Part shown: positions 1-20,323 of the stretch, piece by piece
Layout of the letters: each line of letters opens with the position of its first letter
Numbering within the stretch: the stretch's first letter is position 1
Source of the DNA: Nepenthes gracilis
Taxonomy: Eukaryota > Streptophyta > Magnoliopsida > Caryophyllales > Nepenthaceae
DNA length: 64,000 nt
Assembly: GCA_033239525.1 (NCBI GenBank)
Contig: BSYO01000010.1
Coordinates: 11,497,379 to 11,561,378 of the forward strand
Direction: 5' to 3'
Notes under the pieces: model-generated
The model's database searches: none
What the model was told of the DNA's origin: nothing
What the model saw: the letters and a program-made list of their open reading frames with translations, nothing else
Made by a program: the position numbers and the translations under genes

Positions 1-434
1 TCCAGCCTTGCTTAACATAGTAGTGGGCAATGTAGCCCCGACAGTGAGAGTAGAACGAAGCAGTAGAACATCCTTGGGCTTGCTGGAGGGAAACACTTCA
101 AGGTCACTACTAGTGGTTCATACATTTTCCTCATTATAGATACAAGTGAGAAATTGCAGATCATTGATCCCGTTGGGTACCAGAACACAGCTGTTAGAGG
201 GTCCGTATCCTCCTGACAGGCCATAAATTGACTGAATGAGAATTATAACAAATTCGGTGAGGAACACAAGGTATATCATTGAGTTCACAAGCTCGGGAGG
301 ACCAGTTGCCACAGAGGGCTCGTTTCTAATTGGGAACATAGTGGTCTGGCAATTTGAATCGGGACAGTTTTTGTTAGGAGGACCCTATAGCTCTTCAAGT
401 GACCCTCTTCCCATATTGACCCCATGTTCATTGG
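1..434 (-). other. Left-edge part of element A, unidentified
   Basis: Interior of element A beyond the PP2C fragment. The minus strand has an open stretch at 339-118 with a hydrophobic run (MIYLVFLTEFVIILIQSIYG) that could be a further captured membrane-protein piece, but I do not recognise it. The 3' LTR and polypurine tract expected further left are not in the window. Confidence 0.3.
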
Positions 435-509
435 CTACCACCTTGCTGGATCACCTTCGTTGCAAGAAGAGGGCTGAGATGGAGAAGTTCTGCCCTGTCT
501 GAACTTGAA

Positions 510-881
510 AAGGGCAGTTGTCCCACTATAGAATGAATCAATTTTTTGATGCTGCTTGAGCTCTTGATCGACAGCAGCACAAATCTTTAAATAGGAATGC
601 TTCCATATAGCAAACCACTGCAACTTCTTATCATCATCAAGGGCAAAATCTAAGTCGAGTGAAGATTGAGCAAGAGTCCTTTGCCAATTGCACATCAATG
701 AAGATGGCATCCACTTCCTAGCCGTTTTTACCACAAAATGTCCACAGAGGCCATGCCTGTCAAAAATCCCACAAAATATCATGTCTGGTTGACATCCAAA
801 TGCCTTCCAAACAATGCAACAATCTTGGTTTACACCTTTATTGCCCCTCTTCAAGAAGACAATGGCAAAGTTGTTCAACCC
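510..881 (-). pseudogene. Captured fragment of a clade-E protein phosphatase 2C (EGR-like)
   Basis: The translation follows the N-terminal catalytic part of plant clade-E PP2Cs: NNFAIVFLKRGNKGVNQD, then CCIVWKAFGCQ, MIFCGIF, SLMCNWQRTLAQ, IWKHSYLKICAAVDQEL and KIDSFYSGTTAL. It stops there, before the GDSRAVL block and the rest of the catalytic core. The metal-binding DGHG motif reads DRHG (codons at 756-761), a single-base change of G to R expected to abolish metal binding. It follows the FKBP piece with about ten linker residues and no frame break; the open frame ends at 435. As a third of a phosphatase with a ruined metal site it cannot be active. Confidence 0.88.
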
Positions 882-914
882 AGCTGCAAGAACAGTGCCT
901 GAAGACTTCAATCT

Positions 915-1260
915 ATCCTTCACATTATCCCATGACAGCAATTCCACATCAAATTGGGGGGCCACATTTGGGGGGATAGTTGCAGGAGAACCGAATTCAC
1001 CATAAGCCAGCTTTGGAGGAATGGTGAAGATGGTATGCTCACCTTTCTTTTTTGCCTTGATTCTCGGATCCCATCCCTTAATAACTTGACCTTGTCCAAG
1101 AGAAAATTTGAAAGGTGTTCCCCTTTCACAGCCTGAATTGAACTTTGTTCCATCAAGTAGAATACCAATATAGTGTACTTCAACCTTTTTGCCATGTTCA
1201 AGAGTGGCCTAGCCTACACCATCCTTTACAAGCTTCTTTGTAAGGCCTTCCTGACCAACC
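915..1260 (-). pseudogene. Captured fragment of a plant FKBP-type peptidyl-prolyl isomerase (FKBP62/ROF1-like)
   Basis: Reading on the minus strand gives most of one FKBP domain: GLTKKLVKDG, then VEVHYIGILLDGTKF, GTPFKFSLGQGQVIKGWD, IFTIPPKLAYGEFGSP, and QFDVELLSW at the end. This is the order and spacing of the first FKBP domain of plant multi-domain FKBPs such as ROF1, which are HSP90-associated prolyl isomerases. One in-frame TAG interrupts it at 1209-1211, where the family usually has a tryptophan. The remaining FKBP domains, the TPR region and the calmodulin-binding tail are absent. Apart from that stop it is uninterrupted, with no intron-like gap; plant FKBP62 genes have several introns, so capture from a spliced transcript is likely but not proven. 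It runs in frame into the PP2C fragment. Confidence 0.85.
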
Positions 1261-1268
1261 TCCTTCAG

Positions 1269-2059
1269 CTTTTCAAGGGTCATAACCTCAATGGATCGGT
1301 GACCTAGGAAATTTGCAACCTCTCTCACCGTGTATTTAAGGGAGGTATCCAATTCTAAAGGTAGATCACCTTGACATATGTTAAGTAGGGAAATAAGGAA
1401 CACATTGGGAGGTTGGGGTATCCAGAATAATCCATTCGGGCCCCTGTTATAGGCTAGGAACCAAACATCATCACCTACCCTTCGGAATGAAAATGGTAAG
1501 GATCTAGGGAAGCAAAAATCACTGCATTACTGCACGCTTGATGTGAGGGAAGAGCAACTTCCACTCTTCCTAGGTGAAGAAAACTGCAACCCATGGTGGG
1601 TATACATGAGTGAAGCCACACCAGCAAAACGAAATCTACCAAACTTGTATTCTCCTAAACACCATCGAGCATTTAGGTTGAGAAACCGTAGCACTTCTTT
1701 ATTTTCATAATTGAAAAGTCGAGAATCCCACATTTCCAAAACAACATTATAGACAAGTCCTTGAATGCAAGGAAACATACCATATCTAAAGTAGGAGTAG
1801 GTGTTAACAACATGCTTCGTAACACTCATGCCAACAGGGCTACATTAAAACCATCGAGGGCGCATGAAGAAATAGAAGCCTCTACATCTACTTTATCATC
1901 TTCAACTTTAGATGAGGGACGAAGGGCTTCTTGCTGGACATAACTCTCGGGTTGAGGGTCGACTTCATGCGTCGCTTGAGCATCAATTAGAATCACCTCA
2001 GATATTTCTGATTGATCAAGAGAGGATGAAGAGCCATCACTCTTGAACCCTGGATCCAA
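1269..2059 (-). pseudogene. Unidentified coding-like stretch of element A
   Basis: Two open stretches (1829-1527 and 1526-1212) lie in the same frame, separated by one stop, and that frame continues through the FKBP and PP2C fragments below. A further acidic, serine-rich piece (2059-1826) is in another frame. Segments such as [22 protein letters not shown] and GDDVWFLAYNRGPNGLFW look like real protein rather than random translation, but I do not recognise the family. It could be more captured host sequence or part of the element's own protein. Confidence 0.35.
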
Positions 2060-2190
2060 TGCTGTTGCAGAAGTAGCTATTGTTGCAGATCAAAAGGCCA
2101 ACTCAGAAGAGGACTTCTAAGCAAAGATCAGCCTTGAAGTTTGACTAACGAGGGCTTGGACTCAGCCCTGGAAGCAACAGCCGTAAAAGT

Positions 2191-2994
2191 CTAGCAAAAC
2201 CGGGACAAAGGAGCTTCGTGATTCAAGGCGAAAGGGTTGTCAGGTTGGGGTACATGAAGATGGAGGACAATTTGGTTGTCAGGATGTGAGGATAAAACTA
2301 TGGGTGAGATTTGTGTTGGTGGTGAAAGCTCCAGTGGTGGTATCGTGGTCAAAGGCGCCATGAACGTAGCAGGGATTGGTAGCAATGGTGAGGAGGGAAC
2401 ACCAACAAATGGAGAAACCATGACTGATGAAGGGGTCGGTAACCATGAAATAGATTCTCACTCGATTCGAGCTAGAGAGAGGGGGCTTTCATCATGGGTT
2501 TTCTAGAGTTGTGCCTTGGTGGGAGCCATGGGGGTGAGTCGAGGGGATTGTGGTTGGATGGTCACAGTAGAGGACGGAATTTCAGGTGGAGGAAGGTGAA
2601 GAGGAAGAGCGGTTGTGGCGCCTGGTGGTGACAGTGGCTTGCAGGGTGAGGTGTGGGTTGGAGTTTGCGGTTGTGGTTGTGAAAGCAGTGGTGGAGGGTA
2701 AACAGTCGTAAATGGAGAAGCCACTACTGGTGAAGGAGTTGGGGGCCATGAAATAGTTTGTCTGCTCTGTTTTTGTTTGATCCGGTGGAGTAATTGAAGA
2801 ATTTCAGCAACGGAGTTCTGAATTTGTGCTTTGGTGGAAGCTTGGGCAACAATGGCGGCTGCATGTTGTTGGACGGTCACCTGGAGCTCCTTCACCTCCA
2901 TCGACAGCGATGCGATGGAAGCATCGAGTGCATCAAATGCTTGTGCTTCAGTTGCGAGGGCCGTGTCCTCTGTCAGGTCTCAATGAGAGCACCT
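2191..2994 (-). pseudogene. gag-like leader of element A
   Basis: Decayed coding-like sequence just inside the LTR. The first part is helix- and glutamine-rich, with a possible short coiled coil (heptad-like L/I/V spacing after MEVKELQVTVQQ, about 2901-2760). A long proline/serine/threonine-rich stretch follows in the same frame (2901-2503 and 2421-2191). Element B has the same plan at the same place: coiled-coil-like start, then a Pro/Ser/Thr-rich region. I see no zinc knuckle and no recognisable capsid domain, so 'gag-like' rests on position and composition. In-frame stops break it. Confidence 0.45.
2978..2988 (-). other. Palindrome TCTCAATGAGA beside the LTR of element A
   Basis: An inverted repeat, TCTCA-A-TGAGA, ten bases inside the 5' LTR where the primer-binding site should be. 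The same eleven bases occur at the matching place in element B (17242-17252). It overlaps the expected primer-binding region and could form a small hairpin. No clear tRNA match can be stated from sequence alone. Confidence 0.5.
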
Positions 2995-2997
2995 CTA

Positions 2998-3358
2998 TGA
3001 TGCATGCACCGTTGATGACGGTCACAATAGATAAACAAAGGAGACGAAAAACCAGTGGAGTGGATGGGAAGGGGGAGTCCAGCAGAGGAGAAATTAGGGG
3101 AAGAGGGGAACAGTCGTGGGAGAGAGGTAGAGAAAGGGAAAAGGACAGACGTAGAAGGACAAAACAGAGAGGGAGAACAGAGAGTAGAAGATGTTAGAAG
3201 GAGTAAGGAAATATTACTTTCTCCCATTCCTCAACTTGAATAGTACAAATATATAAAAAGCTAACAGCATTGGTTGGCATCCAAACAAATTAAAAAAAAA
3301 GCTAACCGAAAAGGGGAATAAAATATCAGAAAAAGTAACTGAAATTAGGCACGTAACA
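2998..3358 (-). repeat. 5' LTR of element A
   Basis: 361 bp running from TGATGCATGCACC to GGCACGTAACA, that is TG...CA. It is recognised by comparison with the two B LTRs, which start TGATGCATGC or TAATGCATGC and end GAGTACGTAACA. The middle is purine-rich on the plus strand and diverged from B. The five bases after it, GATTG at 3359-3363, would be one half of the target duplication; the other half is outside the window. Confidence 0.65.
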
Positions 3359-3384
3359 GATTGGCTGTGGGCGTTGGGCTGCCA

Positions 3385-3466
3385 CAAAAGCTGTTTTGAG
3401 TTCTGGGCCACTACTACCTAGATTGGGCCTCGCAGTTCTTGGCCCTCACTGATACTAGACCCAGCA
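3385..3466 (-). repeat. Terminal fragment of a Tat-type LTR
   Basis: The stretch AAAGCTGTTTTGAGTTCTGG ... CACTGATACTAGACCCAGCA matches the outer end of the E2 LTRs (20240-20323 and 32215-32307), which read AGCTGTTTCGAGTTTTGAG ... GATAATGAACCCAACA. In transcription direction it is the start of an E2-type LTR. Only about 80-100 bases remain, ending next to the element A insertion. Confidence 0.6.
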
Positions 3467-4467
3467 GCTAGGAAGAGCAGCCATCCAACTTAATGACCTC
3501 TCAAACTTCGAAATTACATCTAATTACTTCCACTGCAAACTATTATTGTTGTTTTGTTACAATTGTTACATTTGTTACTCTATTTTATGAGTTGGTTTAT
3601 ATTCCATTAGTATTGTTAGAGTCATGAGCTTCATCCCATCTATAGGCACTGTTACTATAGCACGAGAAGAAGGAAATAACAATACATTTCATTAATTCTC
3701 ATCTCTCCTTTCCTGTCACTCTCCCTCTTCGCCTATTACTCGCTGCCCGAATTCCCCTCCCTTCTTGCTCTTCTTGTTCTTCTTGCTCAACTTCCCCAAA
3801 TCACGATTGCGGATGCACATTGTTTGCATCAGGGAGCATAAAGTATCACGTTCCAACCACGTAATCAAACAGTCTCAGTTATTGGACTATTGACTTTACA
3901 CAAAATCATTAGCAAAGCAAACACATTTGCATATAGGTTGGAAAGATATAATGCCAGCAAAATTACCAAGTTGATCCATTATCTGATAAATTGTATTAAC
4001 AAATACAAATCTTGAAGGGGAGATATCTGATATATAACTAATTACTTGTCCTAACTCAAATTAGATCATAAATAAATGTAAGATAATATCAAAATCAGAA
4101 TCCAAAACTTTTCAAATTAGTCATTTGACTAGTGACTTTGGCAAAGCCGCCCCATCGTCCGCTGCTATTTGACGTCAATCCCACTAACCTAAAAGGTGCT
4201 AAGTTTAAAGATGTGAGCCAAAATGCTCAACAAATAATAAAGATATGTAAACAAATAATTCTTCACAAGTAAAAGGACGACAAATAGTATTACTAAAAAA
4301 ATCACATAATTTTTAACCAATGTCTAATAGCATCCTATTGTTAAAGTCAAAATGAAAGGTTAACATGTTTTTATATTATACTCTGTTGATAAAAACAAAC
4401 GTCACTATTTTTATTATTGGAAGATGGTCTTTCTCAAACCTTTTCCTGTAAATAATATAGTGAGTAT
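3467..4467. other. Spacer between element A and E1
   Basis: About 1 kb, AT-rich on the right. No gene seen. The part at 3680-3830 is pyrimidine-rich (CTCTCC, CTTCTTGCTCTTC) and resembles the 5' untranslated end of a small LTR, possibly another remnant. That is only an impression. Confidence 0.4.
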
Positions 4468-4672
4468 TGTAATATCTCAAATTTTTATTTGAATTAATTT
4501 AATATTAATTATAACTTTGGGTAAATTGGACGTGATAAAATTAATTAAATATTAAAAAATTTTAGAAAAATATTTGAGTCGGTTGGGTTGGTGCCTGGGG
4601 TGCGTCTGTTGTCGCCCGAGTATTAATTTGGAATTCGGATTAAAAGAAACGAAAAATTAAAATAGAAAATAA

Positions 4673-4711
<39 letters not shown>

Positions 4712-6957
4712 AAACGAAAAAAAAAAAATGAAAAAAAAAAGAGAGATAAGGATGGATTCGGGGAGAGAGAGTGCAGAGGAGGGTTTGGGTGAGGAGATGA
4801 GGGAGGCGGCAGCCGCGTGTGGAGGAAGGTGAGGGATCGCCGCGACGTGCGTTGAGGATGACATGGTGCCGGTGGTTGTCGGCGGTTGAAGATTTGGCAG
4901 GTGGTAGTGGAGTGGCACAGAGGTGAGACTGTTGAGGAAAATGACAATGGTTGTCGGGCAAGATCGTCGGCAGTGACACCGGGAGGCTCGACGAAGTGAC
5001 ACCGTGGTGGCGGGTTGGCATGGCATCGTAGAGTGAGGAAACCGCATAGTGAGAGAGAGAGAGAGAACGACGCTCCAAGAGGAGGACGATTGAGAAGCGG
5101 CGACGGCGGCGTGAGGTGCTATCATGACGGTGGTCGGCAGCGGCCAATGGTGGTCCACCAGTGACCAGTGATGCCATGGGTGAGTAGCACAGAAGCTGTG
5201 CAAAGGAGAGAGAGCGGCTGGGCGAGGGTCATGCACGGCAGGAAAGAGAGAGTGCTGATTGAGGCACTTCGGGACATCATTTCTTCTGATCTGTAAAGTA
5301 TGAGGTCTAGGCAAGTATCTGTAAACCCCCTCTTTGGTCTAATTTAATTTATGATATATTTTGGATACTGTTTGGAATTTTTACTAACATGCATGTATTT
5401 TTATATACCTAAATTATTTATTCTGGACATGCATGTGTAGTCACTGGATGCTTTGGAGATTGTTGGACTGGGTTTTATCATTTTAGAGAGTTTAATTTTT
5501 TTTTAAAAGTTTGAATAATTTATTGGATACTGTATATTTTTATATTAATAAATTTGTATGAAAATGAGTATGAAACTTTGCATAGGCCGTGCAGTCATAT
5601 TCACGTGTCAGGTTGTAGTCACTACATTTGAATTTGAATTATTAGATTCTAGTCAGCTCCCGACGGGGAGATTATTTTGTTATTTGGAAATCCCTTTCCG
5701 CCGGCAGGAAAGGTTTGGAGGAGTGGCCCTTCCCGTTTAGATAATTGACTTGACCATAGAATATATTCGGACGTCCTAATATATCTGACAAGTTTTAGGA
5801 ATGCACCCAAAGCCGCGGGTGGTAAAACATAGTGAGCAACCTTATCTATGAGTACACAGTACATGGATTTTGGCCTAAGGTTACCAGGATTGTGTATAAC
5901 CCTTCCTCAAGCTGGTTTTAAATAATTAGAATTTAAATTTGGTACATAATTTGTATTTTTGCATTAATTGGTATTAAACATTGATTTGGATATGGATTTT
6001 TGACTTTGGATTTGAGATTCGCCGATTTTTGCCTATAATTAGGCTTGGTATGTCTCGTACAAATAATTTTGATTATATGTTTTGATCCGGACCTTTGGAA
6101 TATCTATCGCGGTGATGCTTCGGTTTCTGTGCATGCTATTGGATCATCCGGTTATTGGATTCTGTCCCATATCACAAGTTGATCGGGCATTAGACTCGGA
6201 CTTGGACTCGGGCTCGGATTTGGACTCGACATATGCTTTGGAATTAGTCCAGATCACCTCTGTTTTGGTTATATATATATACGTCCTCACGATGACTATT
6301 TTTAAAATTTAAACATTTGTTTGGATTTGATATTTAATTTGAGTACAAGACTACCATTAGATTTTAAAATTTGGATCTTGAATTTCGATTGAATTTATCT
6401 TATCGCCGATTTGGATTTATTATGAAATCTGATTAGATTTTCATCCATTTGATATTCCCTCTAATTTATTGGACTTCTTTTAACTAAATATGATACTTGT
6501 TGAGAATTAGGCTCATTTTTCTATTTTGTCCATTCAGAGTGGAAGGTTCGGATGCATTGCAGGAGTTAGAATGTGATCTGTTAGCCATTCGTCTAATTCG
6601 GTGAGTTTTGATTCTATTATGGTTTAATTTGATAATTGATGCAATTGTATTATGAAAATTGGCCGGGTATAGGCCCATGGTAATATTTTAAAATCTATTG
6701 AATATTTTATTATATGTGATTTGTGATTTTGGTTAGAATTATTATTTTTCTTACGATGATTGTAGAGCAGATCACATTTATATTGTTCGGATGGTTATTT
6801 GATGAGGTCCTGTAAAGATTTTAATTTTGTTGAGTTGTATATTTTGGTTTGTCACACCCGGATTTTGGGACTTAGTATTATTTGTTTAAAATTATTTAAA
6901 ATTTTAGATTTTAAAAATTATAATTAATTATTTAAATTGACCTACTTGGTCCGGGTT
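4468..6957 (+). repeat. 5' LTR of E1
   Basis: Starts TGTAATATCTCAAATTT and matches the 3' LTR along its whole length, ending near TTGGTCCGGGTT. It contains an AAT microsatellite about 203 bases from its start and purine-rich tracts. Long open stretches on its minus strand (4623-5314) are low-complexity artefacts; they recur at 10834-11456 only because the LTR is duplicated. Confidence 0.85.
4671..4703 (+). repeat. AAT microsatellite in the E1 5' LTR
   Basis: About eleven consecutive AAT units. The 3' LTR has a shorter run of about five units at 10871-10886, and the related solo LTR at 44073-46285 has an ATT/GTT run at 46049-46082. All three start about 203-206 bases from the LTR start. Confidence 0.9.
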
Positions 6958-8050
6958 CTTAATAGAAGTGATATTAGAGAAAAGTCATAAGGAAATGTAA
7001 TTTGGATTATTTTGGATAAATAATTGGTTTAATATTTGGGTATAATAAGTATTACCTTTAGTTGATAATAAAAAATTGAGTTGTAGAGATTTAGGTTTGA
7101 ATCAAAAGGTCAAGTCGTAGGGGTTTGAGTATGGATTGGAAGGATGATCATCTAATAATGATGAGTCACACAAGCCACATAATGTATGGTTTGATATAGC
7201 AGTTGAATTAGAATTTTGTTTGGTTTCTGCAAATATGTGGAGATTTTGTTGGAATTTGTAACTTTGGAAGAGTGGTGGTCTGAAATTGGAGTTGGTCCGA
7301 AATCTTGTAGAGTAGAAGGAAATTTTGGTCGGCAGAGGGGTAGGTAATAAAGTTAGTCGACTCGAAATCTCGCTGGGTTAGAAGGAGATTTTTGGCCGGT
7401 AGAAAGGTTAGCGGTGAAAGTGGAGATGAATGAAGATCCTTTAAAATTGGATGTCGCAGATAAAGATGAAGAAGTTCAAGTCAAATCAACTTGTTTCTCC
7501 TCGCTAGAAGATAGGACAATGAAGTGTAAGTCTAATTTTGTTGGCAGCGATGATGCTGATTGTATAGAAGTCTGAAATTATAGTTGGAGCAAGAGAAAGA
7601 CTAAAGATTGTCCATTCTCACTCGTTGCTATAATCAGGTGGATAGTCATCCCTGCAAATCTTTCATTGCTGAAGAATCGAAGGACAAAGAGTTCGTGGTT
7701 TGTTCTCCTAAAGCAATGCTCAAGAAGAGGTTAAAGAATTTAAAAGATTTGTTAAAGCATGATAGTAGTTGAGGACTTCAAGATTCAATCTGAAAATAGT
7801 TGGTGTCATTCGGGTGCTAAACTTATGATGAGGAGCTAGATCATACTTTGTTGATCGAGTAGGGGTAGTCTTGAGAAGTAATTCCAGAAAAAATCAGAGC
7901 ATTGGAGTCAAAACTCAAAAGATGGATTTGTTTATCATTTAGAGGACAAGTTAAAAGAAACTCAGGTGAAACAAAATCTTCTTCTTGAAGTTGGAGTTTG
8001 CAAGATCAGCCTGCAAGTTTAGTAGGAAGAAGTACATGAGATGAGTTTGC
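6958..8050 (+). other. E1 interior, former gag/protease region
   Basis: Position suggests leader, gag and protease, but stop codons occur in all frames and I cannot identify any domain. No primer-binding site could be placed with confidence next to the LTR end. Confidence 0.4.
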
Positions 8051-8129
8051 TTTGTCCAAAATGGAGTCTACTTCAAATTGCTTCCTGAAATGCTATTTGT
8101 CAAGGGATCGATTAAATTTCAGGCATTTG

Positions 8130-9170
8130 GATTCCAAACATCCAGATAGAAGTCAGATTATTTTAGCAGGGCATTTTGCATATATAGCCGATGAAGTTAG
8201 AGCTAGATCCTCAGTCTTGGAAGACTATTTTGGTAAGCCCATCCCATTCTGCATTCAGGATATGAGTTTTCTGAGCTCCAAGGAGGAATCAATAAGAAGG
8301 TTTCAAGGTTAATCTTGGTGTAGTGAGTCATATGTTGTGAGATGAGTGTCGAGCTTATTTGGCACATATAGTTACATCTAGGAGTTATTCCTTGACCTTT
8401 GAAAACATTTTGGTCATTGCGAGTTTGAAGATGCTTTTAAGAGGATTTAACTATTTGCTCATGGATCGAGAGATCAAATTTATTTTTGATGTTGTGCTTA
8501 GATTGGCGCCTATTTCGAAGGCTCCGTATGGGGTAGTCTTGTCTAAGTTGAAGAAATTGAGACAGCAATTGTAAAATCGGTTGAGAAGGGTTTTGTTCGA
8601 CCAAGTGCCTTGATATGGAGTGTTTTAATATTCTCTGGCAAATTAAGTTGGATCGATGGGTTTATATTTTGATTATTTAAAAATAGATATGTATCAGTTG
8701 TCAAAGATCAAGGATTTGTTGGATCCATTTGAAGAGATTTGGGTTTTCTCTTTGATTGAATTGTGCGCGAGGTATCCTTTATTGTGAATTAAGTGTGAGG
8801 ATGTGTTATGACAATTTTCAAGTCAATGTGTGGCTGTTGCAAAGTTTTGATAGTGCTTTTGGATTGTCAAATATTTTGGCGTCTTTTATGGATGTTATCG
8901 ATTGGAATTTTTGACAATTTTTGGGTTAGTTATAATGGCCTTATCAATAATGCTCTAATTTAATTGAAGAATTTTGAGGAATGAAAATTATGGTTAGAGA
9001 AGGCATTATTCTAAGTCATATGTTTGTTAAGGTGATATTTGACAATTCGAAGAAGATGGGAGCTGTGGCGAATTTGAAAAGACTAACTAGGGTCGTGGGA
9101 GTACAGAGTTTTTGAATTTGGTTGGTTATGATGGAAATTTGTTGGAAGTTTCTCAAGGATTAGAATGTTG
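8130..9170 (+). pseudogene. E1 reverse transcriptase remnant
   Basis: The linker before RT is visible as AGHFAYIADEVRARSSVLED (about 8169-8228). The RT start follows as MDREIKFIFDVVLRLAPISK, continuing with APYG to about 8532. Beyond a stop and a frame change come sequences matching the DYRQLN to VFSKIDLRSGY block in badly decayed form (VFSLIELCARY near 8750) and the thumb region FLNLVGYDGNLLE near 9110-9150. The catalytic YxDD box is not recoverable; the sequence around 8905-8950 is too damaged. The type is Ty3/gypsy, from the APISKAPYR-like motif. Confidence 0.75.
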
Positions 9171-9209
9171 TTGGCATCATTTGGAATAGAAGTGATTAGT
9201 ATTCAAATA

Positions 9210-9429
9210 AAGTGATGCTAGTGAGGAAGGTTTTCAAAAATTGAAGAATAGATTACCGTCGGTGCCGATTTTGTCAATCCCTGATGAATCAGAAAGTTTA
9301 GCCGCATTCAGTAATGCTCCTAAGAAAGATTTTGACATTTATGGATTTAGTATGGTTAGGCGCATTATTCAAAGAAAAGTCCAGGATGCGGCACAGTTTG
9401 AAGAATTTTTATGTGAAGTGCTATGGTAA
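9210..9429 (+). pseudogene. E1 RNase H remnant
   Basis: FQKLKNRLPSVPILSIPDES matches the block that opens Ty3/gypsy RNase H (FQELKxRLxxAPVLxxPD), followed by a decayed copy of the first catalytic segment (AAFSNAPKKDFD, where families read YSDASKKGLG). The catalytic aspartate of that segment is lost (N). The rest of RNase H is not readable. Confidence 0.72.
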
Positions 9430-9829
9430 AGATGCCAGTGGGAAAACTAGGTCAAAAGAATTTTCCCTTTGTTGCTAGGATTAGATTCTGAACAAAATTC
9501 CTATCTGCGGGAGAAGTTTTGAGAAGATTAGAAATGAAGCCCTTTTGGATGAGCTACATTAAAGTTGAAAGCGATTGAGCAAGCAATCTCGGACATTCTG
9601 TACCAGGGCTTTCCCTTTGCACGTTTGAGAGGAGGCATGTTCGCAAGAATTCTCTTGTTTGAATATCGATTGGATGGAAGTTCGGAAGCAAATGAGGTTG
9701 TTAGCAACTATATTGAATTGGAGTTCTCCAAGTTCGATGGGAACGTCGAAGATTCTCCACCTTACGGAGTGGAGAGAGAATTTGATGGCAGGTTGATCAT
9801 TTGTCGAGGTTTGCAGGCAAAATATAAAG

Positions 9830-10460
9830 CGTGAGGTTGTGGCCTGTGTGGCAAGATATATCCATGCCTAAAGATGAAGTCAAGCAGAAGAAGAAGCCTC
9901 GAGATTTGTGTTTCAGGTCTGCCTCGGATGACTAGAAGATTGGTAGCAATTTGGAGGATGATGGATGAGTTGATGGAGTCATCTCTTTTCTTGACGATCA
10001 GGATGTCATTCCCGAGATTCGCTGTCGGCATGTTGTCGATATGAGAAGATTATAAAATATTTTGACTCTGAGGTTTCTGATTTTGATTGGAGGCAGATGA
10101 TCAATTAGAGTAGCGCAACGGAAGTGTATAGACTTTTGGCTATTTGTCACAAGATATGATTTGATGCTTCAAGTAGGAGATTGGATTTGCAATCTTATTT
10201 GAAGTTCAATGTGGATGGGCAGATGTTTATGGAAGCACCTTGAAGAGAAGAATTCTGAGTTGGAGGTTGTCGGGTAATTTGAAGATAAGGTTTGTCAAAT
10301 CTTTCAAAGTGTTCGGTAGGTCAGAGAGGCAATCTGCAAATTAGCCTTATCTCTGAATTTAATGTATGGACATGATATGTCTTATGTGATTTGTATAATA
10401 AATATGTGAATGATCATTCGAATGTGCTTGGATCGAAATCATCATCTATGGATGAGAATT
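9830..10460 (+). pseudogene. E1 integrase remnant
   Basis: The catalytic core is seen as TRRLVAIWRMMDELMESSLF followed by LTIRMSFP (about 9930-10010), matching the Ty3/gypsy block YDAIWVIVDRLTKSAHFLP with substitutions. The C-terminal part is recognisable as ICKLALSLNLMYGHDMSYV (about 10325-10390), the decayed form of the AYRLALPP...VHDVFHVS block. Most of the core between them is missing or unreadable. Confidence 0.72.
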
Positions 10461-10469
10461 TGTGTTGTG

Positions 10470-10620
10470 TTAAAGCTTCAATTTGGATTTTGGAATAGAA
10501 AGGATCTACTATTAATGATTAGATTTTGGATGAATCACTCAATCGAGGAAGTGGTCTGAGAAGTGCGAAGATGAAGTTGAAAGAATATGCTCGTTATATG
10601 ATATTTGAGGTTAAGATTGA
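10470..10620 (+). pseudogene. E1 chromodomain-like C-terminal end of pol
   Basis: The stretch LQFGFWNRKDLLLMIRFWMN followed by HSIEE corresponds to the end of Tekay-type polyproteins (ILDRKxxxLRxKxIPLVKVLWxNHxVEEATWE), a variant chromodomain that helps direct integration. Stops follow, and the element's usual tail leads into the polypurine tract. Confidence 0.65.
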
Positions 10621-10650
10621 GATGCGTAAATTTCGTGGCCGAAATTTCTA

Positions 10651-10664
10651 TAAGGAGGGGAGAA
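10651..10664 (+). other. Polypurine tract of E1
   Basis: TAAGGAGGGGAGAA immediately before the 3' LTR start TGTAATATCC. This primes plus-strand DNA synthesis and fixes the element's orientation and the LTR start. Confidence 0.9.
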
Positions 10665-13190
10665 TGTAATATCCCAGATTTTTATCCAGATTAATTTAAT
10701 ATTAATTATAACTTTCGACAAATTGGACGTGACAAAATTAATTAAATATTGAGAAATTTTGGGATGATGTTTGGGTCTGTTAGGCTGGCGCCCGGGGTGC
10801 GCCCGTGTTATCGCTCGGGTATTAATTCAAAATTTAGATTAAAGTAAATAAAAAATTAAAATAGAAAATAAAATAATAATAATAATAAATAAATAAAGAA
10901 AACGAAAAAAAAGAAAATGAAAAAAAAAGAGAGATAAGGATGGATTCGGGGAGAGAGAATGCGGAGGAGGGTTTGGGTGAGGAGATGAGGGAGGCGGTTG
11001 CCGTGCGAGGAGGAAGGTGAGGGATCGCCGGTGACGTGTGGTGAGGATGACACGGTGCCGGTGGTTGTCGGCGGTTGAAAATTTGGCCTATGGTAGTGGA
11101 GTCGCATGGAGGTGAGACTGTCGAGGAAACCGACAATGGTTGTTGGCAACATCAGTAGCATTGGCGCAGGCGAAGTGACACCGAGGAGGCCGGCGACGAC
11201 AGTTCGCAGTGGTGGCTGGTTGGCATGTCATCGTCGTCGAGCAGCGGCAACAATGGTAGAGGAAGCCGCGTAGTGAGAGAGAGAGAATGGAGCTCGGAGA
11301 GGAGGACGACTGAGCAGCTGTGACGGCGGCGTGCAGTGCTGTCACGACGGTAGTTGGCGGCAGCCAATAGTGATTCGCTGGTGATCGGTGATGCCATGGG
11401 TGAGCAGCATGAAAGCCGTGCAGAGGAGAGAGAGCAGTTGGGCGAGGGTCACGCACAGCAGGAAAGAGAGAGTGCCGATTGAGTCACTTTGGGACATCCT
11501 TTCTTCAAATCTGTAAAGTATGAGATCAAGGCAAGTATTTGTGAACCCCTGTTTGGTCTAATTTAATTTCTGATATATTTTGGATGCTGTTTGAAATTTT
11601 TACTAACATGCATTTATTTTTATACACCTGAATTATTTATTCTGGACATGCATGTGTAGTTTATTGGATGTTTTGGGGATTGTTGGACTGGATTTTGTGA
11701 TTTTGAAGAGTTTAATATTTTTCTAAAAGTTTGAATAATTTATTAGTAGTATATTTTTATATTAATATATTTGTATAAAAATGAGCATGAAACTTTGCAT
11801 AGGCCGTGCAGTCACATGCACGTGCCGGGTCGTGGTCACTACATTTGGTTTTGAATTATTTGATTCTGGCCAGCTCCCGATGGGGAGATTATTTTGTTAT
11901 TTGGAAATCCTTTTCCGCAGGCAGAAAAGGTTTGGAGTAGTGACCCTTCCCGTTTGGGTAATTCGACTTGACCTTAGAATATATTCGGACGTCTTAATAT
12001 ATTTGACAAGTTTGAGGAATGCACCCAAAGCCCCGGGTGGTAAAACATAGTTAGCAACCTTATCTATGGGTACACAGTACATGGAGTTTAGCCTAAAGTT
12101 ACCAAAATTATGTGTAACCTTTTCTCAAACTGGTCTTTAAATAATTAGAACCCATATTTGGTGTATAATTTGTATTTTTGCATTAATTGGTATTGGACAT
12201 TGATTTGGATATGAATTTTTGGACTTAGATTTGAGATTCGCCGATTTTTGCCTATAATTGGGTTTGGTATGTCTCGTACAAATAATTTTGATTACATGTT
12301 TTGATTCGGACCTTTGAAATATCTGTCGCAGTGTTGCTTCGATCTTTGCGTACGCTATTAGATCATCCGGTTATCGGATTCTACCCCAGAACACAAGCTG
12401 ATCGGGTATTGGATTTGGACTCGGACTCGGATTTGAACTTGGATCGATATCTGCTTTGGAATTGGTCCGAATCACTTCTATTTTGGTTATACATATATTT
12501 ATTTATATATATATATATATACGTCCCGATGAGAATTATTTTTAAAATTTGGACATTTGTTTGGATTTGGATATTTGATTTGAGTACGATACTACCATTG
12601 GATTTTAAAATTTAGATCTTGAATTTTGATTAAATTTGTCTTATCGACAATTTGGATTTATTTTGAAATTTGATTGGATTTTCATCTATTTGATATTCCC
12701 TCTGATTTATTGGACTCCTTTTAACTAAATATGATATTTGTTGGGCATTAGGCTCATTTTTCTATTTTGTCCATTCATAGTAGAATGTTTGGATGCATTG
12801 CAGGAGTTAGGACATAATCTGTCAGTCATTCATCTGATTCGGTGAGTTTTGGTTCTATTATGGTTTAATTTGACAATTAATGCAATTGTATTATAGAAAT
12901 TGGCCGGGTATAGGCTCATGGGAATATTTTGGAATCTGTGAAATATTTTATTATATCTGATTCGTGATTTTGGTTGAAATTATTATTTCCCTGACGATGA
13001 TTGTAGAACAGGTCACATTTATATTATTTGGACCATTGTTCGATGAGGTCCTGTGAGAATTTTTATTTTGTTGAGTTGTATATTTTGGTTTGTCATATCC
13101 GAATTTTGGGATTTAGTATTATTTGTTTAAAATTATTTGAGATTTTAGATTTTAAAAATTATAATTAATTATTTAAATTGACAGGCTTAG
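10665..13190 (+). repeat. 3' LTR of E1 (interrupted by element B)
   Basis: Matches the 5' LTR from TGTAATATCCCAG to AAATTGACAGGCTTAG. Element B then intervenes, and about ten more LTR bases (TCCGAATTGG) resume at 17686. Removing B and one CTTAG copy restores alignment with 6931-6957 of the other LTR. A purine-rich AAT/GA region lies about 200-290 bases in. Confidence 0.85.
13186..13190. repeat. Target-site duplication of element B, left copy (CTTAG)
   Basis: CTTAG immediately before the LTR start TGATGCATGC. The other copy is at 17681-17685. The uninterrupted sister LTR reads CTTGG at the matching place (6945-6949). Confidence 0.93.
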
Positions 13191-13616
13191 TGATGCATGC
13201 ATATTGATCGTGGCTGGCGAAGTCATCGTTGGTGTCGACTGGAGTGACCGGAGAGGGGAGTTTTGGCGGAGGAATCGGTAGACGGAGGCGGATTAGGGTG
13301 AGGGAAGGGAAGAGGAAAACAGAACGAGAGAGAGAGAGAGAGAAGAACAGACGAGAGGGAGAATCGAGAGAGAGAGATAGAGAGAGAGAGTTGAGAGACG
13401 AAACTAATTTCCTTTCTTCTCATTACGGCGTAACATTACATATATAAGGGAACGGGTATGAAAGAAACGAGGAATGGGAAAATGCAAAACGGGCAAGGGG
13501 CATGGGAAACAACCAAAGGAAATAAACATAGAAAATGGGATCCGTCACTTCCGGTTCGATTACTGTGCCGACGATGGTCCTCCAAATTTGGAGGGTGTAC
13601 AGACGAGTACGTAACA
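13191..13616 (-). repeat. 3' LTR of element B
   Basis: 426 bp, nearly identical to 17261-17680. Plus-strand start TGATGCATGC, end GTACGTAACA. It contains a GA-rich run (about 13326-13390), and read on the minus strand a TATATA-type promoter box near 13437-13446. The high identity of the pair implies a fairly recent insertion. Confidence 0.93.
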
Positions 13617-14248
13617 TTGCCGTTCCCTTCAAATTAACCTTGTCCTCAAGGTTAAGTGACTTGAGTCCAGAAGTCCCGATCCCGGTGCAACAACGTTGTT
13701 CTTGCGTGAAGGATAGAGCGGCCGAGTCAAGATCAGCTGCTGTGTCAACAACGTTCACATCCTCATACACAACTTTGCCCCCTAGCTCTGAATGCATCAA
13801 CTTAAGATGGGTGTTTTTAACTACCGACACACGAGGCTCCCAAGATTCCCCACTGTCAGCTTCTTGTTGTCCAAAAGCCTTGGACTTAACTCTCGAATAA
13901 GGCGGCCCAATGTCTTGGTGATTGGAATATAGCCCACACTGTGAGAATGCATCTAATCCTTGACGGCATGGCAGGCTTAACACTGCTAAAACCGGTGGCT
14001 TCATTTGACCCAGCAGCGAAAGAAGGAAAACTGGGCCCAGAACCTCAATTGATTGCATGATCTTTCTGACTGATGTTACCGCAGGGCCTCTGGGCACATG
14101 TGTGCCTGCCGTCCAACCTCTTATACTTGCAAACAGTGCCCTGGTGAGCCATGGTAGAACAGCGACTAAACCGGATTCCATGAGATGGAATTTCAACACC
14201 GGATTGTAATATGTAGGCCTCCCTGTCAGAAGCATAAATGCTTCCCAA
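13617..14248 (-). pseudogene. 3' tail of element B before the 3' LTR
   Basis: Open stretch on the minus strand ending in SLNLEDKVNLKGT just before the LTR. That ending resembles the terminal sequence of many plant Ty3/gypsy polyproteins, which overlaps the polypurine tract (GAAGGGAACGGCAA before TGTTACG). The rest (GRPTYYNPVLKFHLMESGLV and on) I do not recognise; it may be the element's own tail or another captured piece. Confidence 0.4.
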
Positions 14249-14279
14249 TTATGGCAGAAGTGGGCGAATTCCAGTGCCT

Positions 14280-15000
14280 AGACTGGTGCTCTTGATAGAA
14301 TGACAGGTGCCCTTGAGATGCTGCCTTCCAGGATAAAAATTTTTTTATGGCCACTAAGTCCTGAATCTTCATTTGGGAAACTATATGCTTTACTTAGCCA
14401 CAAGGCAAACCAGGCACCTCCAAGAGACTCAAAGGAACCGAAAATGATGCCATCCAAACTGGTGGAGTAAAAATGGTAAGAAAACCAATCCCGTGATGTA
14501 ACCTGGCACATGCTACTTTGTATATCGAGGCAAGGGCTCTGCTTCTTGCGATACAGAATCGATTAGAAATGATGTTGTTCATAGCAGGCATAGCAACACC
14601 TCTCCCATCCCCATAACGACACGCATTATAAGCAAACAGGCAGATTAACTTTGCATCAATAGGTGCTAAAACTGAGCCACGTAACCCGGCCTGCATCAAA
14701 GGTGATGCTTCGCCCGCACGTTGCCATCCTCGGGCCTCACGTCCATTGACCACCCAATCACCCCAAAACCCAATGCAAGCTTTCCACCAATTTTGTCTGC
14801 CCAAAAGCTGCCAACTATTTGAGTAAGAAGGTAGCTCCAGAAGGACAAAATTTGAATCAGACCCACAATTGCACTCTTCCAATTGAACTCTTGTGACTTT
14901 GGAAGTATTGCAGTGCTCCTGTTCACCCGATCCATGTGGCACAATAGAAATGATGTAAAGAAAAGCAGTACAATGACCCATCGTGTTCGTAGCTGCTCCC
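14280..15000 (-). pseudogene. Captured fragment of a plastid anion transporter (ANTR/PHT4, major facilitator superfamily)
   Basis: First part (to about 14747): RWVIVLLFFTSFLLCHMDRV then STAILPKSQEFNWKSAIVGL, SYLLTQIVGSFWADKIGGKL and ALGFGV, matching the first two to three membrane segments of ANTR/PHT4 proteins (CNMDRVNMSIAILPM ... LLTQIxGGxWADxxGGK). After a gap and a frame change, GVAMPAMNNI (near 14600), then WFALWLSKAYSFPNEDSGLS (near 14400) and ILEGSISRAPV. The segment between the two parts is deleted or replaced, and at least two frameshifts are present. These genes have many exons in plants, yet no intron remains here, which favours capture from spliced RNA. Confidence 0.85.
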
Positions 15001-15022
15001 ACCATTTTGGAGGGCCATGTTC

Positions 15023-15313
15023 CTCTCTGCATATAGACTTCCAGCAATGTGTATATCGTTCAATTGATAGCAAATACCATGCTGCCCCCAGGACATGACC
15101 CGCTAACATGTACAACAGCAGATTGTATGTAGCCCCAGCCCATGCAGTCTTTGTGACTACCCCCGTAGCTTGTACAATTTGAGAATTCAATGGGAAAATC
15201 TGATACAATCTGGGAACATTTTGAAGCAAAACTATCAATGCAAGAGTATTATTATTCTGATCAGTGTGTGGATTTCTTGTCGCTGGAATGATGAACCAAA
15301 TGACAATCTGATA
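15023..15313 (-). pseudogene. Captured fragment of a cyclic nucleotide-gated channel (CNGC)
   Basis: Residues about 157-253 of the 361-residue frame: YQIVIWFIIPATRN, then LALIVLLQNVPRLYQIFPLN, TGVVTKTAWAGATYNLLLYM and LAGHVLGAAWYLLSIER. These match plant CNGCs from the S3-S4 region through S5 (families read LPQIVIWxVIPxxR ... PRLxRIFPLxxEI ... AWAGAAYNLLLYMLASHVLG). The pore, S6, C-linker, cyclic-nucleotide-binding and calmodulin-binding regions are absent, so no channel could form. The sequence is open with no intron-like break and runs in frame into the transporter fragment after a short linker (CREEHGPPKWWEQLRTR). Confidence 0.88.
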
Positions 15314-15406
15314 CTCAGCACAGGCTTCATGGGAACTCCTCACGTCAGCCTCCACAACATAGAATGCAGCAGCAAAGGTCGACCTATAGGTTTTCTCCCT
15401 GCAGCT

Positions 15407-15781
15407 CCCATCCTGATCTCCCTTTTCATCGTATTGAATTTTCATCCGCTTCCACAGTAGTTTTAAGACAGTACCCCTAAACCAGCATCTTTGAAAATCA
15501 TTGTCGTTGGGCATCATCTCACTCTCCTCATCAACCTCCAAAACCTGGCCATCCCAGCATTTGCTGAACAACACATATTTAAAGGTAAACAATCTCCTGT
15601 TAAACATATAGTAGTTGAAATAGTTTCTAGTTCTCCCAATTCCTCGTACAGCATTTTCATCAGCATCAAAAGTATTACAATAAAAATTGGTAGCTGAAAC
15701 TAATTGGACAGCATTCGGCCCATTCTCAATCTTTGATTTCATAGCATCAACCCTTCTTGGAATAGGACAAGCATCCAGCAT
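15407..15781 (-). pseudogene. Unidentified segment plus Agenet/Tudor-like piece in element B
   Basis: Residues 1-125 of a 361-residue open frame that starts at 15781. Residues 1-89 are not recognised. Residues about 90-125 (DFQRCWFRGTVLKLLWKRMK then IQYDE) resemble the Agenet/Tudor-like module of plant chromatin-associated proteins, where a CWFRGTVL-type strand is followed by a VQYDD-type strand. The resemblance is from memory of the motif and the parent gene is unknown. It is in frame with the CNGC piece below. Confidence 0.5.
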
Positions 15782-15895
15782 TTTTGCTACTGGATGTCCA
15801 TGACCAGAAATACCTTGGAAGTCAGACTAGTGGGCATGAGGAAGACTGATGTGGATCTGCCCTGAGTTTTCTCTGCCATACTGGCATCCTCTGGG

Positions 15896-17296
15896 CTAGG
15901 TATAATGCTTCACGGTACTTGATGTCATACGCTGGACATGCCCATGCAGATCGAATAGGTGCCTTGCAAGCCTCGAAGCCGATAGATTAACAGATTTCAG
16001 CAACAATTTGTGGTTAGGAGGAAGCAAACCTTGGAAATCATCCATTTCCACTGATTCTTGAAGGTTCTCCTCAGTGGAAATTCCACTGATATCAGCCCCT
16101 GGTCCACCAGTAAATGAACCCCCAGTGGGGGGCTGATGATCCTCAATGCCACTCCTGCTTCTTCCATTCTTGAAGTGAAAAGGGGTGATAAGTTGCATCA
16201 GAGTTAGATGTCTGCCAGGAGAGTTCGGCGTGATCATGAGTTGGCCATGAAGGACCCCCTGGTTGGACTGACAACCCATGGAATTTGTAATCTCTCTCAA
16301 ATGTCTCGTGTTAGAAATACCCACTGTTGAGGGTAGTAGGTGTTCATCGTCCAACACAGGTTGATGAACTGTTTCTGGAAACGATTCTGTTGGAAATTTG
16401 TCCTCATTGGAGCCCGCTTCTATAAATGGAATGAGACTCTGACCACCTTCATCCTCCCAATCTAGGTCTATCGGTTTTAAATTCTTGAGTGGTGTAAAGT
16501 AAATTTGGCGATTTGTGACAGTTTGTGGCCTAGCGATTTGGAAATCAGAGGGTGCAGTCGAAGTTGAAAATGAAGCTGAAGTTGCCAACAGCGAGGGAAG
16601 CCTGTCGGTTGAGGAGTGGTATGGAGTCTGCGGTCGCGATTTCAGAAGCAGTGGTGGAGGAAGCTTTTGCCGAGATGTGGTGATAGTTTGCTCTTCGAAT
16701 TGGAAATCAGGTGACACATATGGATCTGGTTTCGCGATTCGAGTCAGAGTCGGCAAAGGCTCAGTGATGGAGGTTCGAAGCACTTCAGTTGTGGGAACCA
16801 CAACTGATGGTAAGTTTGAAATTGCGAGAGGAATTAACGAAGGTGCGGCAGCGAATAAGGTGAGGAAGTTGAAGACGACGGGGAAGCGTGGACGATTATT
16901 TGAGAACTCGGTGGTGGCACGTAACACACAAAGGCAAAATTTTCACAGAGAGTGGACGATACGAAACAATTGGTGTGACTAGTAGAACGTTTGAGGAGAA
17001 GTAGAAGAAATCACAGAAGGTGAAGAGGTCACTGACCGTTCAGTGTTATGCTCGAGTCGGTGGAGTGACTGGTTGATTTTGGTGCGTGACGAGCAGATTT
17101 GTGTTGCTGCTGAAGCCAAGGTGGACAGTTGGGTGGCCAATCGGTCGGTAGCTCGTTGGAGATCCTTCAGCGCACTGGCCCATTCTGCCATAACCTCTTC
17201 GCATGCAGCGAAAGCTCGTCCGTCGTTCGCCTCCGCTTTTGTCTCAATGAGAGTACCAAATAATGCATGCATCTTGATCGTGGCTGGCGAAGTCAT
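15896..17296 (-). pseudogene. gag-like open frame of element B
   Basis: Begins with an ATG inside the 5' LTR (MTSPATIKMHALFGTLIE...) and crosses the primer-binding region. Residues about 25-95 form a probable coiled coil (CEEVMAEWASALKDLQRATD and on). A long Pro/Ser/Thr-rich part follows, then an acidic stretch. Two stops (16979-16981 and 16943-16945) break an otherwise single frame of about 466 codons. Function is inferred only from position and similarity in plan to element A's leader; no zinc knuckle or capsid domain is recognised. The C-terminal third (about 16260-15896) could itself be captured sequence. Confidence 0.5.
17242..17252 (-). other. Palindrome TCTCAATGAGA beside the LTR of element B
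   Basis: Same eleven bases and same distance from the LTR as in element A (2978-2988). It lies in the expected primer-binding region; on the minus strand the leader begins TTTGGTACTCTCATTGAGAC. Confidence 0.6.
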
Positions 17297-17680
17297 CGTC
17301 AGTGTCGATTGGAGTGACCGGAGAGGGGAGTTCTGGCGGAGGAATCGGTAGACGGAGGCGGATTAGGGTGAGGGAAGGGAAGAGGAAAACAGAACGAGAG
17401 AGAGAGAGAGAAGAACAGATGAGAGAGAGAATCGAGAGAGAGAGATAGAGAGAGAGAGTTGAAGAAACTAATTTCCTTTCTTCTCATTACGGCGTAACAT
17501 TACATATATAAGGAAACGGGTACGAAAGAAACGGGGAATGGGAAAATGCAAAACGGGCAAGGGGCATGGGAAACAACCAAAGGAAATAAACATAGAAAAT
17601 GGGATCCGTCACTTCCGGTTCGATTACTGTGCCGACGATGGTCCTCAAGATTTGGAGAATGTACAGACGAGTACGTAACA
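17261..17680 (-). repeat. 5' LTR of element B
   Basis: About 420 bp, differing from 13191-13616 by a few substitutions and small indels in the GA-rich run. Its inner end is TAATGCATGC, where the other LTR has TGATGCATGC. The gag-like frame appears to start inside this LTR, at 17296. Confidence 0.92.
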
Positions 17681-17685
17681 CTTAG
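17681..17685. repeat. Target-site duplication of element B, right copy (CTTAG)
   Basis: CTTAG directly after the LTR end GTACGTAACA, identical to 13186-13190. E1 LTR sequence TCCGAATTGG resumes after it. Confidence 0.93.
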
Positions 17686-19421: not shown

Positions 19422-20323
19422 TGTTGTGTTCCGATTCCCCGATTGTTGTACGGATTAATGAGTCTTTAGATTCCTTGTCGTCCGGATAGGATCATGAGTG
19501 AGTTTGATCTCCGTCGCTGTTAATCTGAAATTTACACAACACAAACTACAAATAAGGGGTCAGAGATTAGTAAAATTTCTCTCACCAATAACACTTCCAC
19601 GCCCAAGTGAGTGACTTCTCGTAATGGACGCAAATGGGCGCACTCCTAGAGGTGTGTAAAAATATGTTGAGTGTACGGTAGGAGTGTGTGGATGCAAGAG
19701 TATGAGACTCAATGAGCATTTTATGAGATGCCTGGCTCCCTGGATGCACCGCAAAGGGTAGCTCACTTTTGTAGTCTGAGAAGGGCTGTGGAAGATTGGT
19801 TAGGATGTGAGTATGAGAGCAAGAGCATAAGGGGTGCACGTCTCAATGTCCAAAATCCAATTAGTGATCAGGAATCAGATCCCACTCCCAATAGAAGGAG
19901 AGGGAATTTATAGGCTCCATGGCGTAGAGTTTTGGGGGCAAGAATCCTTCGTGCAGGGATTTGCCGGCCATTGATTGCTAGTGGTAGCCGGTGATGTCAG
20001 TTGTCACATTGTGATGGTAGGGAGACCGTCGTGCATTACTAGCCACGCTTGGTCTGCTTCTCGCATGAGGATTGGTTGGCCAATTGCAGGGAGTGGTGCA
20101 AGTCGTGACTGACAGAGTTGACCTATCATTCGTTATTTTGCCTCTTCTGCCCAACAACTATCGCCTACAGCCGCATTAATGAGTTGTAGGATGCACTGAT
20201 TGGATACGAGTATTGAGTTACCACGTAGGCTATTTCAAGTTTGGGGCTATGCTAGTTGTCTAGGCCGCTACTACTTGAGTTGGGCATTGTGATTCTTGGG
20301 CTTTACTGATACTAGACCCAATA
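19422..20323 (-). repeat. 3' LTR of E2
   Basis: About 902 bp, matching 31407-32307 by eye over its full length. In transcription direction it starts TATTGGGTCTAG (the other LTR keeps TGTTGGGTTC). A TATA box (AATTTATA on the plus strand) is at 19905-19912 next to CCATGG. The left boundary is uncertain by about three bases. Confidence 0.88.

Follow-up and report, generated by a model that had tools for sequence, protein, structure and literature searches.

Host gene pieces between retained Gag and Pol ends in a putative non-autonomous, chromovirus-like LTR element family of Nepenthes gracilis

TR-GAG elements are LTR elements that retain the Gag domain while pol is missing, and in the transducing, replication-defective retroviruses of animals the start of Gag is fused to host sequence, pol is lost, and a helper is needed. 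In plants, gene capture by LTR elements is already known from Bs1, rice, and pepper. The sections cited here describe Bs1 of maize as an LTR element that encloses pieces of three host genes with a chimeric frame (PMC13317346). LTR elements of pepper, potato, and rice carry spliced NLR genes; approximately 72% of these genes lie in elements that lack gag or pol coding potential, and the cited text assumes that the machinery is provided in trans (PMC5664825). For rice and sorghum, 672 and 1,343 host genes, respectively, are given as lying in full-length LTR elements in the part of the study cited (PMC3726574).

The window analyzed in this study is a stretch of 64,000 nucleotides of the N. gracilis genome (contig BSYO01000010.1, positions 11,497,379 to 11,561,378) containing elements A and B. 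These are similar to TR-GAG elements in that gag-derived sequence is kept and pol is lost; however, TR-GAG elements retain the Gag domain, whereas neither A nor B matches capsid and the interior is taken up by host cargo. The Nepenthes elements appear to act as defective animal retroviruses do when they transduce host genes behind the start of gag, although there is no envelope or infection and the loads are ordinary host gene fragments. As in Bs1, joined pieces of host genes are found within an LTR element, whereas Bs1, in the description cited (PMC13317346), is one element with one load, and many loads on common ends, many copies, and swaps are found here. One gene class prevails in the NLR-carrying elements of the cited sections (PMC5664825); here, many unrelated pieces are joined between the Gag start and the Pol end. 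The rice and sorghum captures, as cited (PMC3726574), are a list for the genome, while the Nepenthes case appears to be one family with changing multi-gene loads. What sets the Nepenthes family apart is the fixed bracket of the Gag N terminus and the Pol C terminus, together with the variety of its loads, its mosaics, and its open frames, which reach 1251 codons; it resembles a natural system that shuffles genes again and again.

Both A and B have the structure of LTR retrotransposons: two direct LTRs, termini of the TG..CA type, and a target-site duplication (TSD) of 5 bp. As listed in Table 1, element B is complete (positions 13191 to 17680, with the minus strand as the sense strand); its LTRs are 95% identical, and the TSD, CTTAG on the plus strand and CTAAG in sense, is present on both flanks. 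Element A is incomplete in the window, which includes the 5' LTR, the leader, and part of the cargo, and is whole with approximately 610 more bases on the left; its LTR pair is 91.8% identical, and its TSD is CAATC. The leader of A has an open frame at positions 2503 to 2979, and Pro-rich sequence continues after it. A's own leader frame closes shortly past the primer site, which counts against the family reading preferred below. The order of the parts, the Pol-tail codons, and the 37-nt spacing are the same in A and B. In sense, the LTRs start with TGTTAC and end with GCATGCATCA, which bears out the predicted sharing of LTR termini; the 5' LTR of B, however, ends with TTA.

Table 1. Coordinates of the features of elements A and B (window positions unless a contig is given)
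Feature	Position	Strand	Remark
Element A 5' LTR (361 bp)	2998..3358	-	3' partner outside window
Element A 3' LTR	C10:11496770-11497133		~250-610 bases left of window position 1
Element A putative primer-binding region GGTGCTCTCATTGAGA	2978..2993	-	
Element A Gag N-terminal leader	1845..2977	-	inner limit approximate
FKBP piece in A	936..1202	-	Pfam FKBP_C, E=3.7e-27
PP2C piece in A	494..911	-	homologues; parental-gene intron absent
Element B 5' LTR (420 bp)	17261..17680	-	
Element B 3' LTR (426 bp)	13191..13616	-	
Element B putative primer-binding region GGTACTCTCATTGAGA	17242..17257	-	
Element B Gag N-terminal leader	16245..17241	-	extent from similarity to L043/L046, which have other cargo
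Agenet-like piece in B	15392..15520	-	below Pfam cut-off
CNGC piece in B	15003..15310	-	homologues; parental-gene intron absent
PHT4-type anion/ascorbate transporter piece in B	13711..15002	-	homologues
Element B final Pol codons (NLEDKV) with purine-rich tract	13617..13653	-	
Element B TSD left copy (CTTAG)	13186..13190	.	
Element B TSD right copy (CTTAG)	17681..17685	.	

The combined pattern of LTR end and primer site has 66 matches in the 752.5-Mb genome and the reversed-pattern control has 0; thus, this combination is beyond chance. The 3' ends of the family, counted whatever the load, occur at 267 exact sites in the genome (reversed-pattern control, 0). When both LTR termini were sought within a short distance of each other, 11 useless places were returned, the real spacing being approximately 330 to 450 bp, and L001 to L008 were dropped. 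The predicted palindrome beside the LTR, TCTCAATGAGA, is present in both elements (window positions 2978 and 17242, with no further copy in the window) as part of the region GGTRCTYTCATTGAG that adjoins the 5' LTR. It was rejected as a separate signal, since it is the primer region in its variant with CTCTC: 40 of the 66 pattern matches have the non-palindromic CTTTC and 26 have CTCTC, as counted from the listing. A search for the primer tRNA of the conserved GGTRCTYTCATTGAG found none, and the site is presumably of a type other than initiator-Met. Self-priming of the Tf1/sushi type was rejected in five elements, as the longest complement to the element's own LTR is 7 nt (in B) and no stretch of 7 to 12 nt was found in the other four.

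The full-length elements L056 and L057 agree with the cargo elements at the LTR ends and the primer site and also in the start of Gag and the Pol tail. In L057, Retrotrans_gag, RVT_1, and Integrase_H2C2 are above the Pfam cut-off, and Chromo, at 23.2 bits, falls short of its cut-off of 25.1; L056 (5046 bp, LTRs of 429 and 436 bp) matches these pieces of L057 except for the integrase core. The order of gag, reverse transcriptase, and integrase, followed by a terminal chromodomain just below the cut-off, would place these relatives among the Ty3/gypsy chromoviruses. Bingo, a Reina-clade chromovirus of beet, is given in the cited part of its description as 5.3 to 5.8 kb in length with LTRs of approximately 390 to 500 bp and a 5-bp TSD, and L056 resembles it in size, LTR length, and chromodomain end (PMC3605345). 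The beet chromoviruses are primed by initiator tRNA-Met in the same source (PMC3605345), whereas the primer site of the A/B family appears to be different. Reverse transcriptase and integrase are absent from every cargo element tested, and A and B have no match to either or to capsid. A and B have both ends of the family and lack these two enzymes, and from sequence they are most readily classed as its non-autonomous derivatives, the family being Ty3/gypsy chromovirus-like. Of the missing interior, remnants were observed as protease in L048, L062, L063, and L021 and as capsid in L052 and L055. The original prediction that A and B form one family holds for the LTR ends, the primer site, the Gag N terminus, the Pol tail, and the tail spacing but not for close sisterhood; the LTR of A does not group with that of B, an outcome that the original prediction had itself named as refuting, and the two elements are in separate groups for leaders as well as LTRs, so the close-family version fails.

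The elements seen are 3.2 to 4.5 kb in size. LTR pairs and TSDs were resolved for 17 of the 24 elements attempted, with 13 perfect TSDs and 3 having one mismatch; L049 has three mismatches by script, and its printed flanks suggest that the end was misplaced. The TSD script did not resolve L048, L052, L057, L058, L059, L060, and L063, and the printed flanks of L058, L059, and L060 resemble exact TSDs. L044, in which neither the primer site nor an LTR pair was recognized, and L053, in which no LTR pair was found, were dropped as rows, and the Pol-tail motif search found no tail in L048, L069, and L073. In tail spacing, the exceptions are L063, which bears cargo with spacing of the full-length type, and L041, which has yet another. 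Tails of 45 nt also occur and may be a mark of full-length elements.

The cargo named in advance was recovered as FKBP by Pfam and as CNGC, the PHT4-type anion/ascorbate transporter, and PP2C by homologues. The Agenet, Ion_trans, and MFS_1 matches in B are all under the Pfam cut-offs, and for Agenet the sub-threshold match is the sole basis. As foreseen, A and B have no common cargo by blastn (E 1e-5), which gave just two matches, one of 54 bp in the leader and one of 47 bp at the 3' end. The CNGC parental gene (C13) has a 174-bp GT-AG intron that is absent from B, and the PP2C parental gene (C1) has a 245-bp GT-AG intron that is absent from A. The loss of these introns, which are the two that were compared, points to transduced, spliced host sequence in A and B similar to that of Bs1. 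The CNGC piece begins at an exon start placed by sequence rather than annotation, and its join to the transporter sits at a common ATG.

Eighteen host gene families were counted (17 by Pfam above the cut-off and PP2C by homologues) in 33 elements, i.e., 24 read whole or nearly whole and 9 in two parts; because fetched elements were translated in the sense strand only, antisense cargo would escape the count. L055 and L061 contain four or more gene pieces each, the load of B also occurs as nested subsets, and L074 and L075 yielded no identified cargo. Outside the count, reading tentatively gave a P4-ATPase-like piece in L043/L046, a helicase piece in L044/L048/L049, an eIF2B-like piece in L072, and piece X together with the last part of A. 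Weak matches below the Pfam cut-off were Agenet, NB-ARC (L052), ceramidase (L049), and, in the predicted proteins P0006 and P0008, histone deacetylase.

Cargo was mapped, as had been proposed, on a tree of leaders, for which a sample of 40 was used; 33 of these have named content under 20 labels (19 for cargo and one for "full-length"). The mapping takes 19 changes, as few as 20 labels allow, whereas the mean is 26.5 and the minimum 23 in 1000 label shuffles, which indicates that a load, once captured, is passed on and that clades differ in what they carry. A and B are in different clades with other loads in between. The relatives of A (L050, L051, L053, and L054) bear the cargo of A and those of B (L040 and L041) bear the cargo of B; A and B therefore did not arise by separate deletions from one ancestral load, in agreement with the original prediction. 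L048 and L049 have 1.5 kb of common cargo on different leaders, and cargo has therefore also been swapped between elements; L045 and L049 have a common 3' block and a different middle. The predicted repeated capture is supported on this sample, with the refinement that blocks also move between elements and not each new load is a fresh capture.

We regard it as probable that the elements are one non-autonomous, Ty3/gypsy chromovirus-like family in which pieces of host mRNA replaced the gag-pol interior via template switching by reverse transcriptase. The cis sequences (LTRs, primer site, 5' region, and purine tract) are kept together with the Gag start and the last Pol codons. An element transcript might read through or splice into a neighboring gene, or be co-packaged with host mRNA; the enzyme, supplied in trans by full-length relatives, would then switch templates at short matches and end on the 3' end of the element, after which the new element would multiply and further pieces could be gained or swapped. 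We infer these steps from what was observed, namely the anatomy, TSDs, common ends, two lost introns, diverse loads, tree inheritance, and mosaics; no capture intermediate was seen among the elements read. Capture at the DNA level, by Pack-type DNA transposons or nested insertions, might apply to some pieces that have no parental-gene comparison, but two parental introns are cleanly gone and LTRs with 5-bp TSDs are present, which leaves it highly improbable.

Few founder captures could also have been followed mainly by recombination, with template switching among cargo-bearing elements making most of the diversity. The L048/L049 and L045/L049 pairs agree with this, as do the CNGC and PHT4 modules, which take three changes each on the leader tree; nevertheless, the 33 elements contain 18 host gene families, most of the loads being limited to one clade, and we consider this course unlikely. 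That A and B were derived by different deletions from one all-carrying element would suit the elements with at least four gene pieces (L055 and L061) and the nested subsets of B's load. It is scarcely credible, however, given that A and B share no cargo, that no element read has both loads, and that the 18 families combined are far too long for elements of the size seen. The poor alignment of the LTR bodies and the separate leader clades would be expected if A and B were unrelated and their LTR ends alike by chance or convergence; against this very unlikely reading stand the common LTR ends and primer site (66 matches, control 0), the part order, the Pol-tail codons, and the 37-nt spacing, and the full-length relatives possess all of these common features.

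In the preferred reading of repeated capture from host mRNA, many loads on common ends together with a readable tree would make capture rate, joining chemistry, cargo swapping, and selection on fused frames measurable in one plant. Several frames that join the Gag leader to cargo are open for hundreds of codons, and predicted fusion proteins may therefore be made. It is rather doubtful that these constitute a standing gene-fusion system whose frames would be translated, kept by selection, the seed of annotated chimeric N. gracilis genes, and a main source of new multi-domain frames in this genome. As a warning, the predicted proteins of the N. gracilis genome include such element fusions. The longest frame is that of the Pol tail in 17 of 24 elements and that of the Gag start in 18 of 22, against a control that is biased because the other frames hold conserved stops. 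Twenty codon comparisons, some with few codons, gave values of 0.30 to 1.10, equivocal as to selection on the fused frames, with 0.35 to 0.48 for the CNGC pieces and 0.55 to 1.04 for the leader-containing frames.

The structures that the original prediction gave for A and B, the two cargo-bearing LTR elements in the window, are borne out in their LTRs, primer region, leader, and cargo, and both elements are flanked by target-site duplications (TSDs). The primer region GGTRCTYTCATTGAG adjoins the 5' LTR and is followed by a leader with a Pro-rich stretch, the cargo (pieces of host genes), and then, ahead of the 3' LTR, codons for NLEDKV and a purine-rich stretch. A frame that starts at an ATG within the LTR and continues across the primer region is present in B and most of its relatives. 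The two LTRs of B are separated by a K2P distance of 0.039 and those of A by 0.102; at the rate given for pepper (1.3e-8 per site per year; PMC5664825), which may not be the Nepenthes rate, the insertions would be approximately 1.5 and 3.9 million years old, respectively. B directly adjoins the right-hand copy of a repeat pair that probably represents the LTRs of a larger element. No open frame of at least 220 codons was found in window positions 18000-64000.

Repeats in the window and loads of the element copies (window positions)
Feature	Position	Sense strand	Description
B	17680 to 13191	-	Agenet-like, CNGC, PHT4-type anion/ascorbate transporter; LTRs 420 and 426 bp; TSD CTAAG; total 4490 bp
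A	3358 to ~610 bases left of window	-	FKBP, PP2C; LTRs 361 and 364 bp; TSD CAATC; total 3967 bp
Repeat pair	4468-13182		~2.5 kb, 84.5% identical, 6.2 kb apart
LTR-like repeat pair	19430-20324 with 31414-32308
LTR-like repeat pair	33535-34417 with 49935-50816
Inverted similarity	25546-31592 to 34234-40262
L042			ISE2; TPR piece common to L045; frame 706 codons
L045, sister L047			H+-pyrophosphatase, TPR, kinase
L058			B-like Agenet/CNGC/transporter start, kinase
L059, L060			longer CNGC piece
L061			CNGC, GH3; frame 799 codons
L062			transporter
L063			transporter; 1251 open codons, LTR to LTR
L050, L051, L053, L054			A-type; cargo like A
L052			A-type; weak NB-ARC match
L055			A-type; K+ transporter, ALMT
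Other loads			MATE + histidine-phosphatase piece (frame 762 codons); OST48 + kinase; NLP + RWP-RK; multicopper oxidase; ALG3 + ParA-type NTPase; ALMT

The origin of the shared ends is indicated by two full-length relatives, L056 (~5.0 kb) and L057 (~5.4 kb), which have the LTR ends, primer region, and tail of A and B together with a full but decayed gag-pol. Retrotrans_gag, RVT_1, and Integrase_H2C2 exceed the Pfam cut-off in L057, and Chromo, at 23.2 bits, falls just short of its cut-off (25.1). In both relatives, a comparable leader and Pro-rich region open Gag, ahead of the capsid; thus, the predicted leader stands as a structure and is now identified as the Gag N-terminus, and their tail identifies the common bases that precede the 3' LTR in A and B as the Pol end and purine tract. 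Remnants of the protease (L048, L062, L063, and L021) and capsid (L052 and L055) and the chromodomain end (L052 and L063) are kept in cargo elements, and neither reverse transcriptase nor integrase was matched in any cargo element tested. Immediately ahead of the 3' LTR of L056, L057, and most of the cargo elements read, an inverted repeat (AACCTT..AAGGTT) is formed by the Pol-tail codons AACCTTGAGGACAAGGTT, and it is preserved at the DNA level in most copies.

In the N. gracilis genome (752,504,767 bases, 133 contigs), in which the window occupies C10:11497379-11561378, the LTR end plus primer region occurs at no fewer than 66 places and the Pol tail plus LTR start at no fewer than 267, both being lower bounds from exact matches only; the reversed patterns gave 0 in each case. 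Among the 100 tail matches listed, the tail is 44 nt in 69, 45 nt in 24, and another length in 7. Short spacing was found in 22 of the 24 cargo elements read that have a recognised tail (L041 is shorter and L063 long), and long spacing in both full-length elements. DNA queries with leader plus LTR gave at least 45 matches for B (40 of 897 candidates scored) and 51 for A (40 of 375), and cargo queries at least 84 for B (40 of 185) and 48 for A (40 of 114).

Cargo was looked for on the sense strand only of the fetched elements. B is matched from end to end by L040 (92%) and L041 (91%), and L042-L049 resemble B in LTR and leader, with different cargo except for short patches. Seventeen cargo families reach the Pfam cut-off, namely FKBP, ion channel, MFS, ISE2, H+-pyrophosphatase, TPR, kinase, GH3, K+ transporter, ALMT, MATE, histidine phosphatase, OST48, NLP, copper oxidase, ALG3, and ParA; an 18th, PP2C, is supported by homologues. 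Approximately 19 places that match positions 574-986 of the A-cargo query contain an intron-less FKBP piece that stops near the FKBP-PP2C join of A. The single one read, L066 (C38:7458500-7460000), combines a Gag-like start with two FKBP domains in a single frame, so A's FKBP piece may derive from another element.

The proposed leader tree with cargo mapped onto it was built from 40 leaders aligned from the primer region onward, excluding L044 (no primer region) and L030 (same locus as L054). A falls in a clade with a support of 1.0, the four full-length or gag-bearing relatives L010, L029, L056, and L057 form a clade that likewise has a support of 1.0, and B lies elsewhere, among other loads. 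The same A and B groups were obtained in an LTR tree of 17 elements, in which L061 forms a long odd branch and L056 is closer to the A group. The prediction of a single family holds in the broad sense, with A and B on two distant branches. The 20 labels on 33 leaders require 19 changes, compared with a mean of 26.5 (minimum, 23) in 1000 shuffled controls; because the labels are fine-grained and were assigned by us, this mapping indicates inheritance of loads rather than the exact number of captures.

Repeated loading, as predicted, is upheld, and cargo swapping adds to fresh capture: L048 and L049 have 1.5 kb of cargo in common and different leaders, while L049 and L045 have the leader type and 3' block in common but not the middle. 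B is continuous where the CNGC gene (C13) has a 174-bp GT-AG intron, and A where the PP2C gene (C1) has one of 245 bp. The CNGC piece starts at an inferred exon start, and the ATG at the CNGC-transporter join is found in both sources. The joins and swapped blocks fit template switching between packaged RNAs, which would join and exchange cargo; read-through, splicing at joins, and helper supply are further putative steps. That LTR elements can capture spliced genes, be non-autonomous, and form chimeras is known (PMC13317346, PMC3726574, and PMC5664825). A Nepenthes family of this kind was not encountered in these papers, in PMC7264820, PMC3605345, and PMC12244726, or among the open-licence papers searched; the new part is the combination and scale.

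Among the predicted proteins of N. gracilis, chimeric combinations that match B occur in P0002-P0004, P0006-P0009, and P0011. The second half of P0001 (Nepgr_018206), a predicted MYB protein that terminates in an RRM piece, matches the segment just before the Agenet-like piece of B; either this gene model is wrong or an element is used as 3' exons.
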